Origin: Kordia antarctica | GTDB lineage: Bacteria > Bacteroidota > Bacteroidia > Flavobacteriales > Flavobacteriaceae | Assembly (NCBI RefSeq): GCF_009901525.1 | Contig: NZ_CP019288.1 | Coordinates: 4,741,501 to 4,805,500 of the forward strand | Length of the DNA: 64,000 bases | Direction: 5' to 3' | In this document: piece by piece, positions 35,494 through 44,975 of the stretch | How the letters are laid out: each line of letters begins with the position of its first letter | Position numbering within the stretch: position 1 is the first letter of the stretch | Notes under the pieces: generated by a model | The model's input: the letters and a program-made list of their open reading frames with translations, nothing else | What the model was told of the DNA's origin: nothing | Databases searched by the model: none | Program-made: the position numbers and the translations under genes

Positions 35494-36258
35494 TTATCTA
35501 ATTTTTGATACAAAATCTCCAATAGTTTTTGTTCCGTTCTGTGTCAAATGCTTTATAAATGCACTTCCAATAATTGCGCCTTTTGCTTTATTGGTTGCTT
35601 GTGTAAATGTTTCTCGATTGGAAATTCCAAAACCAACTACTTGCGGATTTTTCAAATTCATATTACCAATTCTATCAAAATAATCAGCTTGCGCATTTCC
35701 AAAACTACTTTTTGCGCCTGTTGTTCCTGCCGAACTTACCATATAAATAAATCCGTTGGAAATACTATCGATAAATCGGATGCGTTCTTCAGAAGTTTGT
35801 GGTGTAATTAAAAACACATTAATCAAGCCGTGTTTTTCAAAAATGGCTTGATATTCATTGTGATACACATCAACAGGCATATCTGGAATAATCAATCCGT
35901 CAATTCCGACTTCTTTACACTTTGCACAAAAAGCTTCAATTCCGTATTGCAACATCGGATTTAAATACCCCATAATAATTAGCGGAATAGAAACTGTTTT
36001 TCGAATATTGGCTAATTGCCCAAACAGAATCTTGCTTGTCATTCCATTTTTCAAAGCTTGCGTAGAACTTGCTTGAATCGTTGGCCCATCTGCCAAAGGA
36101 TCACTAAAAGGCAACCCAATTTCGACCATATCAACGCCGTTTTTTTCCAACTCTTGAATCACGCCAACGGTATCATTCAAACTTGGATATCCTGCAGTAA
36201 AATATATAGATAATAACTTTTTATCTTCTTGTAATTTTTGGTTTATTCTGTTCATCAA
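35494..36258 (-). CDS. trpA: Tryptophan synthase alpha subunit
   Basis: This 254-residue protein. It cleaves indole-3-glycerol phosphate to indole and glyceraldehyde 3-phosphate and passes indole to TrpB. Catalytic Glu is in 'DMVEIGLPFSDPLADGP' and Asp in 'DGLIIPDMPVDVYHNE'. Phosphate-binding glycines are in 'SSAGTTGAKSS' and 'VGFGISNRETF'. It is the last gene of the trp operon and is separated from trpB by a GIY-YIG element of 384 bp. Confidence 0.97.
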   Translation of the reverse strand: MMNRINQKLQEDKKLLSIYFTAGYPSLNDTVGVIQELEKNGVDMVEIGLPFSDPLADGPTIQASSTQALKNGMTSKILFGQLANIRKTVSIPLIIMGYLNPMLQYGIEAFCAKCKEVGIDGLIIPDMPVDVYHNEYQAIFEKHGLINVFLITPQTSEERIRFIDSISNGFIYMVSSAGTTGAKSSFGNAQADYFDRIGNMNLKNPQVVGFGISNRETFTQATNKAKGAIIGSAFIKHLTQNGTKTIGDFVSKIR

Positions 36259-36654: not shown

Positions 36655-37836
36655 TTATAACTTGAAATATTCTATATAAGTATTCAAATCCTTGTCGCCA
36701 CGACCAGATAAATTCAGCACTACAATTTCATCTTTTTTGAATTTTCTAGTTTCAAAAATTGCCAAAGCATGCGAAGTTTCAATCGCAGGAATAATACCTT
36801 CTAATTGTGACAATTCAAGTCCAGCAGTCATTGCTTCATCATCTGTAATAGAAATAAATTCGGCACGTTTGCTGGCGTATAAATGTGCGTGCATTGGTCC
36901 AACACCAGGATAATCTAATCCTGCCGAAATAGAATACGGTTCTGTAATTTGTCCGTCTTTGGTTTGCATCAATAAAGTTCTACTTCCGTGAATAATTCCG
37001 TCTTCTCCTAAAACCGAAGTTGCTGCACTTTCACCAGAGTGAATTCCTTTTCCAGCTGCTTCCACAGCGATTAAATTGACACGTTCATCATCTAAATATT
37101 GATAAAAAGCGCCAGCCGCATTACTTCCGCCACCAACACATGCAATTACATGATCTGGATACGAGCGACCTTCTTTTTCTTGCAATTGCCATTCAATTTC
37201 TTCAGAAATTACAGCTTGAAAACGCGCTACCATATCTGGATACGGATGCGGACCAACCACCGAACCAATAATATAATGTGTGTCAACTGGATTGCTAATC
37301 CAATCGCGAATGGCTTCGTTTGTAGCATCTTTTAATGTACGACTTCCAGATAATGCGGCACGAACTTCTGCGCCTAACATTTTCATTCGAGCAACATTTG
37401 GCGCTTGTCGTGCAATGTCAATTTCGCCCATATACACAATACATTCTATGCCCATTAATGCGCAAACTGTTGCCGTTGCAACTCCATGTTGTCCTGCGCC
37501 AGTTTCGGCAATAATTCGGGTTTTACCGAGACGTTTTGCCATCAAAATTTGTCCGATTGTATTGTTTACTTTATGTGCGCCAGTATGGTTTAAATCTTCA
37601 CGTTTTAAGTAAATTTTCGTGTTGTATTTTTTAGACAAACGTTCTGCATAAAATAATGGCGACGGACGTCCGACGTAATCTTTTAATAATTGTTTGAATT
37701 CTTTTTGAAAAGAATCTTCATACATAATCTCCAAATACTTTTGACGTAATTCTTCCACATTCGGATATAACATTTCAGGAATGTACGCGCCACCAAATGT
37801 GCCGTAATATCCTTTTTCGTTTACGTGATAACTCAT
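36655..37836 (-). CDS. trpB: Tryptophan synthase beta subunit
   Basis: This 393-residue PLP enzyme joins indole and serine to give tryptophan. The PLP lysine is in '[15 protein letters not shown]'; phosphate is held by '[12 protein letters not shown]'; catalytic Glu is in '[11 protein letters not shown]'. The start codon overlaps the preceding ORF by 4 bp (ATGA), indicating translational coupling. Confidence 0.98.
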
Positions 37837-38393
37837 GATCTTATATATTTTTTAAACGTGTTGCTATAATTGTCTTGATATGTAATTTTAGTAATTTGCT
37901 TGAAGTTTGATTTATTTGGTTCTTCTAGAAAACCTTGCGCATTAAAGTATTCAATTGTAACATTTTTACTTGAAATTTTTTGAATACTTCCAATAGAAAA
38001 ATAGTTGTGCTTTTTGCGTTCACATTCTACAATAACGCATTCTTTTTTCGCTAGTAAATTTTTAAAGATTGTCTCAAATGATGTAATATCTATTATATTA
38101 TCTTTTTTAGTGATTTTCTTGAATTTTTTCGGGAATTCTTTTTCGAAAACCATTCCATAATATTCATCATTTTTATTACATCTAATATTTGTGATTACTT
38201 TAATAGGAATGCAATTAAAACCTATAAAACGGAATTCATCATTTTCTGCAATGAGTATGAAATCATTAGAACATGTTAGAATATAACCAGTAGTAGCACT
38301 GAAAACATCATTTTTGAATCCTCTACTGATTTTTACGTAATTCTTGTTTTTTATATGTGTTGCGATTATTTTTTTTATTCTTTTCTTACTCAT
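37833..38393 (-). CDS. Uncharacterised protein embedded in the trp operon
   Basis: This 186-residue, very basic, beta-rich soluble protein. Two similar halves are suggested: '[35 protein letters not shown]' and '[36 protein letters not shown]', each like a small SH3/Sm-type barrel. It overlaps trpF by 4 bp at its start and trpB by 4 bp at its end, so it is fully coupled to the operon. No tryptophan-pathway role is known to me. It may be a lineage-specific insertion or a regulator. Confidence 0.72.
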
Positions 38394-39037
38394 GATATCG
38401 CTTTTTTAAATGTTGTTAACTCCTCAACATTCTTCAATCCTGGAGCAATTTCAAACTTACTATTAATATCTAACGCATAACAATATTTTGAGGCTTTACT
38501 ATTTAGAAATGCTTCTAATTTTGGAATCGTTTCTAAACCAATTCCACCACTTAAAAAGAATGGTTTTTCGGATGGATAATTTTCTAAAACTTTCCAATCG
38601 AATGTAACGCCATTTCCGCCAGGTAATCTTCCTTTCGTATCAAACAAAAAGTAGTCAACAAAAGCTTCAAATTGTTTTAAAGTTGTAAAATCAAATTCGT
38701 CTTTTATAGAGAATACTTTGATGATTTCAACACGGACATTGAGCGGAGTCGAAATGTAATCTTTCAATTCAGAGCAAAATTCAGGACTTTCACTTCCATG
38801 TAATTGTACTGCTAGTAAATCATGTTGTATTACTTTTTCAATTATTTCTTCTTGCGAAGAATTTACAAAAACACCAGTTTTTTTGATGCTTTTTGGAATT
38901 TCAGGAATATGAGCGTCAAAAAACCGTAATGATTTTTTATAGAATATAAAACCCAAATAATCTGGTTGCAACTCGCTGATTGCAATCATATTATCTTCAT
39001 ATTTCATTCCGCATATTTTGAGTTTCGTGTGTTTCAT
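38390..39037 (-). CDS. trpF: Phosphoribosylanthranilate isomerase
   Basis: This 215-residue TIM-barrel enzyme converts phosphoribosylanthranilate to CdRP. Catalytic Cys is in 'LKICGMKYEDN' and Asp in 'FLFDTKG'; phosphate loops are 'FFLSGGIG' and 'YALDINSKFE'. The segment 'ISTPLNV' comes from a copy of the ATTGAGCGnAGTCGAAATG repeat (38736-38756) read in frame and would lengthen a surface loop before 'VEIIKVFS'. Confidence 0.96.
   Translation of the reverse strand: MKHTKLKICGMKYEDNMIAISELQPDYLGFIFYKKSLRFFDAHIPEIPKSIKKTGVFVNSSQEEIIEKVIQHDLLAVQLHGSESPEFCSELKDYISTPLNVRVEIIKVFSIKDEFDFTTLKQFEAFVDYFLFDTKGRLPGGNGVTFDWKVLENYPSEKPFFLSGGIGLETIPKLEAFLNSKASKYCYALDINSKFEIAPGLKNVEELTTFKKAIS
38736..38756. 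repeat. Interspersed repeat inside trpF
   Basis: ATTGAGCGGAGTCGAAATG matches the intergenic copy at 26247-26265 with one difference. Confidence 0.75.
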
Positions 39038-39121: not shown

Positions 39122-39907
39122 CTAAGAACGCAACTCCTCAATAAATGCCAAAGCACTTTCGCCAGGATTCTCCGTTTTCATAAAATTTTCTCCAATCAAG
39201 AAACCTTGATAACCGAATGGTTTTAAATCTTTAATTGCTTTCACAGAACTGATTCCACTTTCGGAAACTTTTACGAAATCATTTGGAATATGAGTTGATA
39301 ATTCTTTGCTAATAGCTGTGCTAACTTCAAATGTTTTTAAATTGCGATTGTTTACGCCTAACATATCTAATGACGGCATGATTGATTTTTGCAATTCTTC
39401 CAAATTATGAACTTCTAATAAAACATCTAAATTCAAACTTTTTGCTGTTTCCGATAGTGTTTTGATTTCGTCTCTTGTCAAAACTGCCGCAATTAATAAA
39501 ATAACATCAGCACCATGCGCTTTTGCCTCGATGATTTGATATTCGTCTACAATAAATTCTTTTCGCAAGATTGGAAATTGCACGCTCGCTCTTGCCAATA
39601 AAATATCATCAAGCGAACCTCCAAAGTATTTTCCATCTGTCAATACAGACATTCCGCAAACGCCAGCATTTTCATATCCTTTTGCCACATCTTGTACACT
39701 TGCACTTTGATTGATGACTGATTTTGAAGGCGAACGTCTTTTAAATTCTGCAATAATTCCTGTGTCACTTTCGCGCAACGCTTTTGCCAACGAAGAAGTT
39801 TCACGATTAAATAATACAGAACTTTCTAATTGCGATATTGGAATGATGCTTTTTTTGAGAGCAACTTCCTTGTATTTATCTGCGATGATTTTATCTAAAA
39901 TGGTCAT
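39122..39907 (-). CDS. trpC: Indole-3-glycerol phosphate synthase
   Basis: This 261-residue TIM barrel closes the indole ring from CdRP. Conserved blocks are 'IIAEFKRRSPSK', 'SVLTDGKYFGGS', 'PILRKEFIVDEYQI', 'LLEVHNLEEL', 'LGVNNRNLKTFEV' and 'SESGI'. It is separated from trpF by 84 bp containing a short AACTCAT tandem tract. Confidence 0.97.
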   Translation of the reverse strand: MTILDKIIADKYKEVALKKSIIPISQLESSVLFNRETSSLAKALRESDTGIIAEFKRRSPSKSVINQSASVQDVAKGYENAGVCGMSVLTDGKYFGGSLDDILLARASVQFPILRKEFIVDEYQIIEAKAHGADVILLIAAVLTRDEIKTLSETAKSLNLDVLLEVHNLEELQKSIMPSLDMLGVNNRNLKTFEVSTAISKELSTHIPNDFVKVSESGISSVKAIKDLKPFGYQGFLIGENFMKTENPGESALAFIEELRS

Positions 39908-40053: not shown

Positions 40054-41046
40054 TTATTTGCTCAATTCCTGCAACTTCTTCAAAACTCGCAACGCTTTTC
40101 CAGAATGCAACGATTCTTTCGCGATTTCGAAACCTTCTTTAACTTCGAAACCATTTACTGTTGCAATCGCCATTCCTGCATTTGCACAAACTACATTGTT
40201 TTGCGGATTAGTTCCGTTTCCTTCTAATATGTTTGTGAAAATTTCTGCCGCCGAAGCAACCGAATCGCCACCATAAATATCAGCTTGTAAATGTTGTGGA
40301 ACTCCGAAATCTTCTGGAGTTAATATTTCTTCTGAGTTGTTTCTGATTGCTTTGGTTGAACCAGTTAGTGAGATTTCATCATAACCATCTAACGCATGTA
40401 AAATGGTGTAATTCTTATCTGTATTTTGGTATAAATAACCATACATTCTCGCCAATTCTAAGTCGAAAACACCAACCATTTGATTTTTCGGAAACGACGG
40501 ATTTACCATTGGACCCAACATATTGAAAAAAGTTTTTACACCTAATGCTTTACGAATTGGCGCCACATTTTTCATTGCTGGATGAAATAAAGGCGCATGC
40601 AATACACAAATTCCTGCTTTGTCAATACATTCTTCAAGGAAATCGGTGTCGTCAGTAAATTTGACTCCTAAATGTTCCATCACATTTGATGAACCACTAA
40701 CCGAAGAAACGCCGTAGTTTCCGTGTTTGGCAACTTTTACGCCAGCACCAGCTGTAATGAAAGAAGCCAAGGTTGAGATGTTGAAAGTATCTTTTCCGTC
40801 GCCGCCAGTTCCGCATAAATCAATTGCGTTGTACGCAGATAAATCCACAGGAATACATAATTCTAGTAATGCATCGCGGAAACCTTTGAGTTCTTCAAGT
40901 GTAACACTTCGCATCATAAAAACCGTTAGGAAAGAAGCAATCTGACTCGGATTGTACATGTCTTTCGAAATGTTTACCAATACTTGTTTGGCTTCAGTTT
41001 CTGTGATGTTTTCGTGATTTATGAGTCTGTTTAGTAGGTTTTTCAT
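40054..41046 (-). CDS. trpD: Anthranilate phosphoribosyltransferase
   Basis: About 330 residues from ATG at 41046 ('MKNLLNRLINHENI'). An ATG 30 bp further upstream would add ten residues read from a repeat-like sequence and is less likely. PRPP is bound by 'DLCGTGGDGKDTFNIST', anthranilate by 'KHGNYGVSSVSGSSNVMEHLG', and metal by 'HALDGYDEISLTG'. It transfers phosphoribose to anthranilate. Confidence 0.97.
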   Translation of the reverse strand: MKNLLNRLINHENITETEAKQVLVNISKDMYNPSQIASFLTVFMMRSVTLEELKGFRDALLELCIPVDLSAYNAIDLCGTGGDGKDTFNISTLASFITAGAGVKVAKHGNYGVSSVSGSSNVMEHLGVKFTDDTDFLEECIDKAGICVLHAPLFHPAMKNVAPIRKALGVKTFFNMLGPMVNPSFPKNQMVGVFDLELARMYGYLYQNTDKNYTILHALDGYDEISLTGSTKAIRNNSEEILTPEDFGVPQHLQADIYGGDSVASAAEIFTNILEGNGTNPQNNVVCANAGMAIATVNGFEVKEGFEIAKESLHSGKALRVLKKLQELSK

Positions 41047-41306
41047 GTTGTTTGATTGAAAGATTGAAAGATTCAATAATTGAATAATTCAAAATCTTAA
41101 TTCTGTAATTTATTTATACTTTTTGTTTTTTCAAATTACTTCTCGATACAAATTTGTTTCACAAATTCACTCGAAGTGACGTTTCGTTTTTTTTATTTAA
41201 AATTGAGCATTTAACATTTATAATATTTAAGAAACAGATTGCTTCGGCGAAAAGCCTCGCAATGACATTTCTGAGAATCTCAATATTAATATCTAAAATC
41301 TCATTA

Positions 41307-41873
41307 CTATTTAGTAATCCAATTTTCTAGTATTTTTTTCCCATTCGGTGTTAATATCGATTCTGGATGATATTGAACGCCACGAACATCATATATTCTG
41401 TGACGAAGCGACATGATTTGTCCGTTTTCATCAAAAGAAGTAGCTTCTAAACTTGGCGGTAACGGACTTGCAACAATCCATGAATGATAACGTCCAACTT
41501 CAAACGATTTTGGCAAACCATCAAAAAGTGATTCGTCATCAACAGAAACTTCTATTTTTGTGGCAACTCCATGATAGACTTCTGATAAGTTTGAAAGTGT
41601 TCCGCCAAAGACTTCGCCGATTGCTTGTTGTCCTAAACAAACACCTAAAATACTTTTTGTAGCTGCATATTTTGCAATAATTGGTTTTAATAAACCTGCT
41701 TCATCGGGAATTCCTGGGCCTGGCGAAAGAATAATTTTTTCGTAATTATCTACTTCTTCCAACGAAAGTTGATCGTTTCTTTTTACCGTAACATCGCAGC
41801 CTAAATCTTCTAAATAATGCACAAGATTGTACGTGAAACTGTCGTAATTATCTATGACTAATACTTTTTTCAT
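41307..41873 (-). CDS. trpG: Anthranilate synthase component II (glutamine amidotransferase)
   Basis: This 188-residue class I amidotransferase. Oxyanion loop 'SPGPGIPDEAG', nucleophile Cys in 'GVCLGQQAIGEVFGG', and catalytic His-Glu in 'GVQYHPESIL'. It supplies ammonia to TrpE. A 947-bp repeat-filled gap separates it from trpE, unusual for partners of one complex. Confidence 0.97.
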   Translation of the reverse strand: MKKVLVIDNYDSFTYNLVHYLEDLGCDVTVKRNDQLSLEEVDNYEKIILSPGPGIPDEAGLLKPIIAKYAATKSILGVCLGQQAIGEVFGGTLSNLSEVYHGVATKIEVSVDDESLFDGLPKSFEVGRYHSWIVASPLPPSLEATSFDENGQIMSLRHRIYDVRGVQYHPESILTPNGKKILENWITK

Positions 41874-41923
41874 TTTTTTGTTTAATTAAAAGATTGAATA
41901 ATTCAATGATTAAAAAATCTCAA

Positions 41924-42670
41924 TTCTGGTCTCTTTTATCTCTTTTCTTCAAAGCACTTCTCGATACAAATTTGTTTTACAAATTCACTCGAAGTGACGT
42001 TTTGTTTTAATTTAAAATTGAGCATTCAACATTTACAATTTCTAGGAAACAGATTGCTTCGACGAAAAGCCTCGCAATGACGTTTTGTTTATCTCAATTC
42101 TTACTACTAATATCTTACATCTATTTTATCTTATTGTTTTTAAAGTACTTCTCGATAGATACTGAATCAAGTTCAGCACACTCGAAGTGACGTTTTGTTT
42201 TAATTTAAAATTGAGCATTCAACATTTACAATTTCTAAGAAACAGATTGCTTCGGCGAAAAGCCTCGCAATGACGTTTTGTTTATCTCAATTCTTACTAC
42301 TAATATCTTACATCTATTTTATCTTATTGTTTTTAAAGTACTTCTCGATAGATACTGAATCAAGTTCAGCACACTCGAAGTGACGTTTTGTTTTAATTTA
42401 AAATTGAGCATTCAACATTTACAATTTCTAGGAAACAGATTGCTTCGGCGAAAAGCCTCGCAATGACGTTTTGTTTATCTCAATTCTTACTACTAATATC
42501 TTACATCTATTTTATCTTTTTGTTTTTAAAGTACTTCTCGATAGATACTGAATCAAGTTCAGCACACTCGAAGTGACGTTTTGTTTTAATTTAAAATTGA
42601 GCATTCAACATTTACAATTTCTAAGAAACAGATTGCTTCGGCGAAAAGCCTCGCAATGACGTTTTGTTTT
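41924..42670. repeat. 193-bp tandem repeat array
   Basis: Units begin at 42092, 42285 and 42478, exactly 193 bp apart, with a shorter divergent unit before them and another divergent copy at about 41155-41270. Each unit joins two palindrome-like elements: ACTTCTCGA...TCGAAGTGACG and AGATTGCTTCG...CTCGCAATGACG. The first carries ACTGAATCAAGTTCAGCAC. Confidence 0.92.
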
Positions 42671-42724
42671 TAATAGAAAGTTTAACGTTTAAAAGTTTAA
42701 ATTGTAACTGCAAATGGAGATTTT

Positions 42725-42817
42725 CTCACAACTCACAACTCACAACTCACAACTCACAACTCACAACTCACAACTCACAACTCACAACTCACAACTCACA
42801 ACTCACAACTCACAACT
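42725..42817. repeat. 7-bp tandem repeat (CTCACAA), about 13 copies
   Basis: A nearly perfect run ends 3 bp from the trpE stop codon. It is expected to vary in copy number. Confidence 0.95.
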
Positions 42818-42820
42818 ATT

Positions 42821-44215
42821 TTATATTGTTTCCGCAATTTCCAACGCCGTATTCAACGCTCTTAGTTTGTTATAAACTTCTTGATTTTCGTTTTCTTCTT
42901 CGGATTTTGCTACAATTCCTGCGCCAGCTTGGTAATGCAATTCATGATTTTTGCTTAGAAACGTTCTGATCATAATTGCGTGATTAAAGTTTCCATCAAA
43001 ATCCATAAAACCAATTGCACCGCCATAAAAATCACGGTTGGAGGTTTCATATTTTTCAATTAATTGCATCGCTTTGTGTTTTGGTGCGCCACTTAAAGTT
43101 CCTGCCGGAAATGTATCAGCCACAACTTGCATCGTTGAAACATTTGTGTGTTTTTGAGCCGTTACTTTAGAAACTAAATGGATTACATGCGAGAAGAATT
43201 GTAATTCTTTATACGTTTCTATTTTGACTTGATTACCGTTTCGACTTAAGTCGTTTCGAGCTAAATCGACGAGCATAACGTGTTCTGCATTTTCTTTTGG
43301 GTCGTCAAATAATTCTTTGGCAGATTTTGCATCTTCTTCATCATTCCCAGAACGTTTGAAAGTTCCTGCGATTGGATGAATTTCTGTGTGATTGTCTTGC
43401 ACAACTAATTGCGCTTCTGGCGAAGAACCAAAGATTTTGAAATCGCCATAATCAAAATAGAACAAATATGGAGACGGATTTATACTTCGCAACGCGCGAT
43501 ATACATTGAATTCGTCTCCTTTAAATTTTTGAATGAATCTTCTCGATAATACTAATTGAAATACATCGCCGCGAAAACAATGTTTTTTGGCTAAGGCAAC
43601 ATTTTCTTTAAATTGTGCATCATCTAAATTTGACGTTCGTTCGCCATCAATCGTAAATTTATACGTTGTAAAGTTTCTGGATCTTAATAAATGTTCAATC
43701 GTATCAATATTATCTTCTTTTTCATAAGAATGTGAAAAAATGTATGCTTCATTTTTAAAGTGATTAAACGCTATAATGTTTTGATAAACAGCATAATATA
43801 TATCTGGAATGTCAAGTGATTTTTCTTTTTTAGAGATTTCTACATCTTCAAAATACCGAACTGCATCGTACGCTATGTAACCAAATAAACCATTATTGAT
43901 GAATTTAAAATCGTTTTTATCCGTTTTAAATTGTTGCGAAAATTCATGAATTAATGCAGGAACATCGGTTGTCGCAGTAATAGGAGTGACGAGTTTTTCT
44001 CCGTTTGGAAATTCCCGCGTAAGCGTTTCATTCATCACTTTAATACTCGCGATCGGATTGCAACATACATACGAAAAACTGTTTCCGCTTGCGTGATAGT
44101 CGCTACTTTCTAAGAGTAAACTGTTCGGATATTTATCTCTGATTTTGAGATAGACACTTACAGGCGTAATTGTGTCTGCCAGAATTTTTTTATATGTTGT
44201 TTTTAAAGAATACAT
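42821..44215 (-). CDS. trpE: Anthranilate synthase component I
   Basis: This 464-residue chorismate-utilising enzyme makes anthranilate from chorismate with ammonia from TrpG. Conserved blocks include 'FQLVLSRRFIQKF', 'PSPYLFYFDYGDFKIFGSSPEAQL', 'PIAGTFKRSGNDEED', 'EHVMLVDLARNDL', 'GTLSGAPKHKAMQLIEKYE' and 'RDFYGGAIGFMD'. It is first in the operon, preceded by an attenuator terminator and a Trp-rich leader peptide. Confidence 0.97.
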   Translation of the reverse strand: MYSLKTTYKKILADTITPVSVYLKIRDKYPNSLLLESSDYHASGNSFSYVCCNPIASIKVMNETLTREFPNGEKLVTPITATTDVPALIHEFSQQFKTDKNDFKFINNGLFGYIAYDAVRYFEDVEISKKEKSLDIPDIYYAVYQNIIAFNHFKNEAYIFSHSYEKEDNIDTIEHLLRSRNFTTYKFTIDGERTSNLDDAQFKENVALAKKHCFRGDVFQLVLSRRFIQKFKGDEFNVYRALRSINPSPYLFYFDYGDFKIFGSSPEAQLVVQDNHTEIHPIAGTFKRSGNDEEDAKSAKELFDDPKENAEHVMLVDLARNDLSRNGNQVKIETYKELQFFSHVIHLVSKVTAQKHTNVSTMQVVADTFPAGTLSGAPKHKAMQLIEKYETSNRDFYGGAIGFMDFDGNFNHAIMIRTFLSKNHELHYQAGAGIVAKSEEENENQEVYNKLRALNTALEIAETI

Positions 44216-44230: not shown

Positions 44231-44266
44231 AAAAAAAAAAGACTTGTCGTGATTGACAAGCCTTTT
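44231..44266 (-). terminator. trp operon attenuator terminator
   Basis: On the minus strand AAGGCTTGTC / GACAAGTCTT forms a 10-bp stem (one G-U) with a 6-nt loop, followed by ten T, ending about 15 bp before the trpE start. Its loop contains TCACGA, complementary to TCGTGA at the leader stop codon (44300-44305), a candidate antiterminator pairing. Confidence 0.85.
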
Positions 44267-44299
44267 TATATATCTATTAATAGTAAATAGGGACTTCGT

Positions 44300-44356
44300 T
44301 CACGATTTTTTTGTTCGTAAGTTCCACCACCAAGTATTTACTAAATTTAATTTCAT
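44300..44356 (-). CDS. trpL: trp operon leader peptide
   Basis: ATG at 44356 reads MKLNLVNTWWWNLRTKKS and stops at TGA (44300-44302). Three consecutive TGG codons in 18 residues, a promoter just upstream and an intrinsic terminator just downstream make this a classical transcription-attenuation leader. Ribosome stalling on the Trp codons at low tryptophan would free the region around the stop codon to interfere with the terminator. At high tryptophan the terminator forms. The mechanism is inferred from the sequence. Confidence 0.88.
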   Translation of the reverse strand: MKLNLVNTWWWNLRTKKS

Positions 44357-44373
44357 CTGTTATTTTGTTGTGA

Positions 44374-44381
44374 CAAATATA
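44374..44381 (-). promoter_or_regulatory. trp operon promoter -7 box
   Basis: TATATTTG on the minus strand matches the Bacteroidota -7 consensus TAnnTTTG. It lies 17 bp before the leader ATG, giving a very short 5' leader. The -33 region is T-rich without a perfect TTTG. Confidence 0.7.
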
Positions 44382-44408: not shown

Positions 44409-44975
44409 TTAGAATTTTAATTCTACGTTTAAATCAAATTCATCGTTGATTGCTTTGTCTTTTAATCCGTCAAAGAAAGAAGCTGAACCGTATTTGATTC
44501 CATATTTTGTACGATCTACTTTTAATTTCGCTTCCGCTGAATTGTTCTCAACTTCAATGTCAAATGTAATTGGCGATTTGTTTCCCTTGATTGTTAAATC
44601 GGCAGCAACTCTGTATACATTGTCATCAGTTTCTACAACTTTTCTGAAGTTTAAGATTGCATCAGGATATTTTTCAACTCCAAAAAAGTCGTCAGATTTT
44701 AAATGTCCTTCTAATTTTGCTTTTCCGCCACCTTTTAAATCTGTAACATTTATCGTTGCCATGTTAATGGTAAACGTTCCGCCAATAAGTTTTCCGTCTT
44801 TAAATTCTAATGCGCCGCCTTTAAAATCAATTGTTCCTTCGTGCTGACCTGTTACTTTATAACCTGTCCATGTGATTGTACTTGCGTCTGCATCAATTCT
44901 TTTTTCCTGTGCAAAAGCAGTTGTAATTCCAGCAAATATAAATAATGCTACTAATGTAAAGATACGTGTTTTCAT
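44409..44975 (-). CDS. YceI-family periplasmic protein
   Basis: This 188-residue protein has a signal peptide (to about residue 22, 'GITTAFAQ'). The lipocalin-like YceI fold is shown by 'DADASTITWTGYKVTGQHEGTIDFKGG', 'GHLKSDDFFGVEKYPDAIL' and 'ADLTIKGNKSPITFDIEV'. YceI proteins bind isoprenoid-like lipids. The MarR gene precedes it by 38 bp on the same strand, so it is probably controlled by that regulator. Confidence 0.93.
   Translation of the reverse strand: MKTRIFTLVALFIFAGITTAFAQEKRIDADASTITWTGYKVTGQHEGTIDFKGGALEFKDGKLIGGTFTINMATINVTDLKGGGKAKLEGHLKSDDFFGVEKYPDAILNFRKVVETDDNVYRVAADLTIKGNKSPITFDIEVENNSAEAKLKVDRTKYGIKYGSASFFDGLKDKAINDEFDLNVELKF

Follow-up and report, generated by a model that had tools for sequence, protein, structure and literature searches.

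A probable Bacteroid-trp attenuator with a bipartite antiterminator and a candidate lysine-codon counterpart ahead of aspartokinase genes

The Bacteroid-trp family was listed as a motif by Weinberg et al. 2010 (PMC2864571, Table 1). For Flavobacterium psychrophilum, this element before the trp operon was likened to the E. coli trp leader in 2019 (PMC6414381), and a transcriptome study of 2021 described strong indications of leader-peptide attenuation ahead of amino-acid operons of this species (PMC9723704).

We analysed a 64-kb stretch of DNA, hereafter called the window, in which the family is recognised by its Rfam model RF01692, 'Bacteroidete tryptophan peptide leader RNA'. The match at 44255..44376 of the minus strand spans the full model (1-131 of 131) with 60.6 bits against a gathering cut-off of 49 (E = 6.3e-05 for the whole window). 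An ORF with Trp codons lies inside the motif, trp genes follow 3' of it, the host belongs to the Bacteroidota, and its genome carries one copy of this leader. Besides RF01692, no Rfam family scored above its cut-off in the 64-kb window, and no T-box covariance-model match reached the cut-off there; GibS (31.6 of 115), STnc370, RsaE, Thr_leader (22.9 of 55) and others remained far under their Rfam cut-offs and were dismissed as chance matches. An earlier sequence-only reading had described the leader as apparently unannotated. Indeed no annotation came with the window, but Rfam recognises the element above a curated cut-off. The trp attenuator is real but of an already known kind, because RF01692 exists in Rfam and the 2019 report likens the element to the E. 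coli trp leader; phylum and proposed function are thus in print. We assign a probability of about 0.9 to the reading that the locus controls the trp operon by ribosome-mediated transcription attenuation and belongs to the Bacteroid-trp family.

Layout of the leader and the trp operon

The whole leader element and the trp genes are located on the minus strand of the window, to which all coordinates of this section refer. Every part that the sequence-only reading had placed ahead of trpE was recovered there, i.e. a promoter box, an 18-codon ORF, three TGG codons, a terminator and a T10 tract. The promoter box TATATTTG (44374..44381) is of the TAnnTTTG type, which we take to be the Bacteroidota promoter -7 box. 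The leader peptide ORF MKLNLVNTWWWNLRTKKS of 18 codons (44300..44356) starts with ATG at 44356, ends with the stop codon TGA at 44302-44300 and contains the three TGG (Trp) codons proposed as the sensor (44324..44332). An outer helix is formed in the predicted fold by TAGTAAATA (44335..44343) as the 5' strand and TATTTACTA (44281..44289) as the 3' strand, which are also paired in the RF01692 alignment.

The intrinsic terminator hairpin AAAAAGGCTTGTC-AATCAC-GACAAGTCTTTTT (44236..44267) has its loop at 44249-44254 and runs into the T10 tract (44231..44240), five T of which form the last part of the stem. This stem had been given as 10 bp; the hairpin scan yields 13 pairs including the A:U part, and 8 without A5:U5, one of them G.U. 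The motif TCACGA (44252-44247) comprises four loop bases and the first two bases of the terminator 3' arm, and the hexamer TCGTGA (44300..44305), which overlaps the leader stop codon, is its exact reverse complement. We consider TCGTGA as part 1 of the antiterminator strand, as indicated by duplex folding, conservation and covariation, and AAGTC (44292..44296), whose partner in the duplex fold is GGCTT in the terminator 5' arm (44258-44262), as part 2. A candidate protector strand TTACGA (44315..44320) is the partner of TCGTGA in both the minimum free energy and the centroid fold of the ribosome-free RNA.

Downstream follows trpE (42821..44215, start at 44215), identified by the Pfam domains Chorismate_bind and Anth_synt_I_N. 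Pfam matches further identify trpG (GATase, 41307..41873), trpD (ORF 40054..41076, with the match on 40054-41046), trpC (39122..39907), trpF (38390..39037), trpB (36655..37836; a PALP enzyme, the gene name being taken from its place in the operon) and trpA (35494..36258). The gap of 947 bp between trpE and trpG (41874-42820) holds 3.5 tandem copies of a 193-bp unit (41986-42669, 98% matches) and 13.3 perfect copies of the 7-bp unit CTCACAA (42725-42817). Between trpF and the trpB-like gene lies an ORF of 186 aa (37833-38393), which overlaps each of them by four bases and is without a Pfam or NCBIfam match.

Conservation of sensor codons and helices

RF01692 matched 11 of 11 genomes of the genus (the window's own included), 79 of 395 genomes of an order sample and 42 of 395 of a phylum sample. 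In all eleven genus genomes the Trp codons and the hairpin are retained, which answers in the affirmative the comparison with close relatives proposed in the sequence-only reading. Together these searches gave 95 distinct loci (L001-L095), which are related to one another, so that the counts are not independent. Three consecutive Trp codons (WWW) were found in 90 and two (WW) in 4 of the 95 loci; L079 yielded no ORF that starts with ATG and bears TGG, and was excluded from the analyses of 94 loci. A trpE-like gene follows in 89 of the 95 loci, 86 times within 430 nt and three times at about 1.3 kb. Of the 94 loci, 89 have the promoter motif TAnnTTTG at most 45 nt 5' of the leader ATG; 4.9 are expected from shuffles.

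In 87 of 94 loci, the stop codon of the leader follows the last Trp codon at +9 to +27 nt, so that, with known ribosome footprint sizes, a terminating ribosome would cover the hexamer and a ribosome on the Trp codons would not. Of the 94 leaders, 70 contain TCGTGA itself. In 59 of these the TGA serves as the stop codon; in five it precedes the stop and is out of frame, and in six it comes after the stop. The hexamer is conserved as RNA and not as codons, because it stays while the reading frame or the stop of the leader moves.

We also constructed a model from the trp leaders (R1), which matched 60 of 390 genomes of the phylum. It missed two genomes of the RF01692 phylum list (G351, G394) and added 20 others, 13 with a WWW leader, one with a WW leader, two with a leader before an aspartokinase gene and four that were unreadable (L145, L149, L150, L151). 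Five WWW leaders matched by R1 and not by RF01692 (L134, L135, L136, L140, L148) are followed by similar ORFs which by eye are trpD-like rather than trpE-like, and the WWW leader L152 stands ahead of an ORF that is, again by eye only, maybe a second type of trpB. Six weak second R1 matches in the genus (L097-L102) were rejected, as they show no interpretable leader ORF with repeated sensor codons; L099 has one TGGTGG around which no ORF was found.

The terminator part of the window folds with z = -4.30 (none of 200 shuffles equally stable) and the whole leader with z = -2.51 (1 of 200). Pairing was counted in 37 sequences hand-picked from 91 distinct ones, a choice that omits near-duplicates and most of the loci whose stop is displaced or whose antiterminator differs, and, as a correction that lowers the pairing, in all 91. 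In the 37 sequences, 99.7% of the cells of the terminator are paired and 7 of 10 pairs changed on both sides. For helix 1 of the antiterminator (UCGUGA:UCACGA), 99.1% of cells are paired with 2 of 6 pairs changed on both sides in the 37 sequences; with fixed columns in all 91, the values are 94.5% and 3 of 6, and 73 of the 91 form six pairs of six. The whole structure is paired to 88.6% in the 91 sequences, compared to 20.8-46.1% in slid controls. Changes on both sides are modestly above shuffles, 22 of 500 of which reach the observed number for the 37 sequences and 2 of 500 for the 91. The number of additional pair types shows no clear excess (reached by 100 of 500 and 57 of 500 shuffles, respectively). 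Terminator and antiterminator are both conserved and covarying, and they are mutually exclusive because they share bases.

In a test designed after the pairing of TCGTGA with TCACGA had been noticed, a hexamer starting 8-28 nt after the last Trp codon was compared with the last four loop bases and two bases of the 3' arm. Six of six pairs were obtained in 72 of 94 loci, whereas 2.1 were expected from shuffled leaders. Exact TCGTGA/TCACGA accounts for 68 of these 72, and informative variants are TCGTAA/TTACGA (L088), GTGAGG/TCTTAC (L028) and GTGAGT/ACTCAC (L095); in L044, the loop TGACGA pairs via TCGTCG three bases upstream. The proposal that the hexamer over the leader stop can pair with the terminator loop is consequently borne out by an exact complement that is conserved and covaries in the wider relatives.

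The antiterminator is bipartite, as helix 1 is joined by AAGUC:GGCUU in line with it on the terminator 5' arm (helix 2), and duplex folding of both helices in the window gave -11.8 kcal/mol. Relatives have AAG(C/U)C or AAGCUU after the stop and GGCUU or GACUU in the terminator. Helix 2 is looser: with four pairs counted, 85.1% of cells are paired in the 37 and 79.9% in the 91 sequences, and the pair of columns 52:115 is unpaired in 35 of the 91. In the duplex test, 15 of 94 loci were matched by more than 5% of shuffles. Helix 1 shares no more than two bases with the terminator stem; helix 2 does more of the competing with the terminator. The earlier suggestion of trp attenuation with TCGTGA as the antiterminator strand is therefore supported by conservation and covariation, but these six pairs by themselves would hardly touch the stem. 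Duplex folding also revealed other solutions in some distant lineages: L060 and L061 use GGCAGCCU on GGGUUGCC as antiterminator, and in members of the L056 clade the whole antiterminator is UUCAAAGUCUUG, paired with the 5' arm. The leader stop of L056, L077, L080, L085, L087, L091 and L092 lies at +39 after the last Trp codon, and the L056 clade is at odds with the rule that a ribosome at the stop codon masks the antiterminator strand.

Proposed switch and alternative explanations

The effect of ribosome position was modelled by removal of the footprint from the folded RNA. With transcripts made as far as the loop, removal of the footprint of a ribosome stalled at the Trp codons gave folds with six or more antiterminator pairs in 93 of 94 loci; removal of the footprint of a ribosome at the stop codon did so in 8 of 94. 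The pair count as such discriminates poorly, as shuffles reach on average at least six pairs in 67.3 and at least nine in 43.4 of 94 loci, where the observed number is 93 for both. Energies of the stalled state do separate: in 78 of 94 loci at most 2 of 40 shuffles are as stable, and for the window this holds for 7 of 1000. At full length, the terminator forms in 94 of 94 loci with the ribosome at the stop, and it is still favoured at equilibrium in 89 of 94 with the ribosome stalled. As the terminator wins at equilibrium even then, the switch would have to be kinetic, with the antiterminator forming first.

Most likely, transcription of the trp genes would be halted by this leader switch when tryptophan is plentiful. 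RNA polymerase would start just 5' of the leader ORF with a ribosome behind it. If charged tRNA-Trp is scarce, the ribosome would stall on the three Trp codons and cover the protector TTACGA, leaving the stretch from TCGTGA onward free. This stretch could then pair in two steps, AAGUC with GGCUU in the 5' arm and UCGUGA with UCACGA in the loop and 3' arm, before the remainder of the 3' arm is synthesised; no terminator would form and trpEGDCFBA would be transcribed. With plentiful tryptophan, the ribosome would reach the stop codon and sit on TCGTGA, the antiterminator would be blocked and transcription would end in the T10 tract. Sequence and comparison establish the parts of the leader, their conservation and the covariation of terminator and antiterminator, whereas ribosome stalling, coupling, the logic of the footprints and a response to tryptophan are what we infer. 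The protector is the least certain step. The ribosome-free fold of the window contains the hairpin TTACGA:TCGTGA, and 53 of 94 loci have TTACG at most 15 nt past their Trp codons; in many relatives the modelled protector helix is doubtful, because 68 of 94 ribosome-free folds hold at least six antiterminator pairs.

The ORF 44409-44975 on the same strand ends 27 nt 5' of the promoter box, and one can ask whether the hairpin merely terminates this ORF while the small ORF arose by chance. This is very improbable, as the WWW ORF, the hairpin and trpE travel together in relatives, and the loop is conserved as a complement of the leader, for which a plain terminator has no need. We give equally little credit to sensing of tryptophan by a T-box or by a TRAP- or TrpR-like Trp-binding protein, systems that exist in other organisms, with only a secondary role of the leader peptide: 94 of the 95 loci retain Trp codons, and RF01692 is the sole Rfam family at cut-off in the window, a comparison that covers RNA families.

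It is conceivable, though rather unlikely, that the functional antiterminator consists mainly of the helix on the 5' arm and that TCGTGA:TCACGA serves as a nucleating loop contact. The two bases that helix 1 shares with the terminator stem and the L056 clade with its antiterminator wholly on the 5' arm speak for this arrangement, but helix 1 is the better conserved one (94.5 vs 79.9% of cells). An added role of the leader peptide in trans, as reported for peTrpL of Sinorhizobium (PMC7298713), would agree with the recurrence of LR a few residues past WWW in many leaders; however, the RNA sequence of LR, TTACG, is explained by the protector helix and the end of the peptide is variable, which makes such a role distinctly improbable. 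Under the reading we prefer, a ribosome-mediated attenuator, the conserved antiterminator gives this family, which the 2010 paper listed as a motif, a mechanism that is concrete and open to testing. As the device needs transcription and translation to be closely linked, its retention across Flavobacteriales argues for coupling in this order.

Lysine codons before aspartokinase and comparison with known leaders

The trp-leader model R1 also matched a leader without Trp codons and of the same layout, located before an aspartokinase gene in another family of the order; among Chryseobacterium genomes, it finds this leader in 18 of 118. The Trp-codon-free pattern TCGTGA-(18-48)-TGTC-(0-4)-TCACGACA was matched a single time in each of 36 genomes, out of 246 of the order, and the matches are 31 trp leaders and 5 aspartokinase leaders; the reversed-pattern control gave none among the matches listed. 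A model of the aspartokinase leaders (R2) matched 17 of 116 Chryseobacterium genomes with E values up to 1.3e-26, besides two marginal matches, and a scan of named genomes gave 16 Chryseobacterium, 3 Elizabethkingia and 1 Paenimyroides record. In the order sample, where 37 of 296 genomes were matched overall, R2 in turn recovered 27 trp leaders (E from 5.0e-9 to 3.3e-4), two weak matches (G427 and G642) and an aspartokinase leader within the window's own family (G622), in which the residues read NKVKK. Leaders with Lys codons lie before aspartokinase in L189 (1498-1620, minus strand), L186 (1475-1597, plus strand), L218, L228, L242 and others.

The 44 aspartokinase-leader loci, which include some genomes twice since two collections were used, encode 17 distinct peptides, all of 18 residues. 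Besides the start, Lys 8, 10 and 11, Leu 14, Arg 15 and Ser 18 are invariant, and Lys 7 is present in 16 of the 17; Lys 8 is encoded equally often by AAA and by AAG (22 loci each). The downstream protein was identified as aspartokinase by its Pfam domains AA_kinase and ACT; the best NCBIfam model, 'lysine-sensitive aspartokinase 3', scores 386.7 bits, under its cut-off of 455. Both antiterminator helices form in each of four aspartokinase leaders folded, and Rfam gave no match at the two such loci tested. Like the trp leader, these leaders have 18 codons, the TATATTTG promoter box, LR at residues 14-15, TCGTGA at the stop and TCACGA in a near-identical terminator; unlike in the trp leader, KKxKK replaces WWW and the gene behind encodes aspartokinase.

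On balance, we favour an exchangeable device in which swapped sensor codons serve a second pathway, the KKxKK leader being probably a lysine-responsive ribosome-mediated attenuator. Sensing of lysine is suggested by the place of the codons, their repetition and the gene behind the leader. Three points speak against this reading: Lys codons are frequent in any A-rich leader, a single genus supplies most of the sequences, and within it the entire peptide is conserved. To our knowledge, no leader-peptide attenuator of a biosynthetic gene with lysine as the sensor amino acid has been described, and our literature search, in a collection with few subscription journals, found nothing on such a lysine leader. 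If true, the Lys-codon twin would represent a device re-aimed by a change of codons.

The leader of the window resembles RF01692 in its full-model match and in a Trp-codon leader peptide 5' of trp genes in Bacteroidota. As compared to Rfam's model (Weinberg's own motif drawing may show more), it extends further, since that model stops inside the terminator hairpin after the 5' arm, which is left unpaired, and contains neither the 3' arm of the window's terminator nor the two antiterminator helices. Compared by layout rather than by sequence, the window leader shares with E. coli trpL a leader peptide with Trp codons and mutually exclusive antiterminator and terminator structures, to which a candidate protector is added. 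The E. coli leader has two Trp codons, whereas three consecutive ones are found here. In E. coli the antiterminator strand pairs with the 5' strand of the terminator, whereas that of the window overlaps the leader stop codon, and its partners are the terminator loop and part of the 5' arm.
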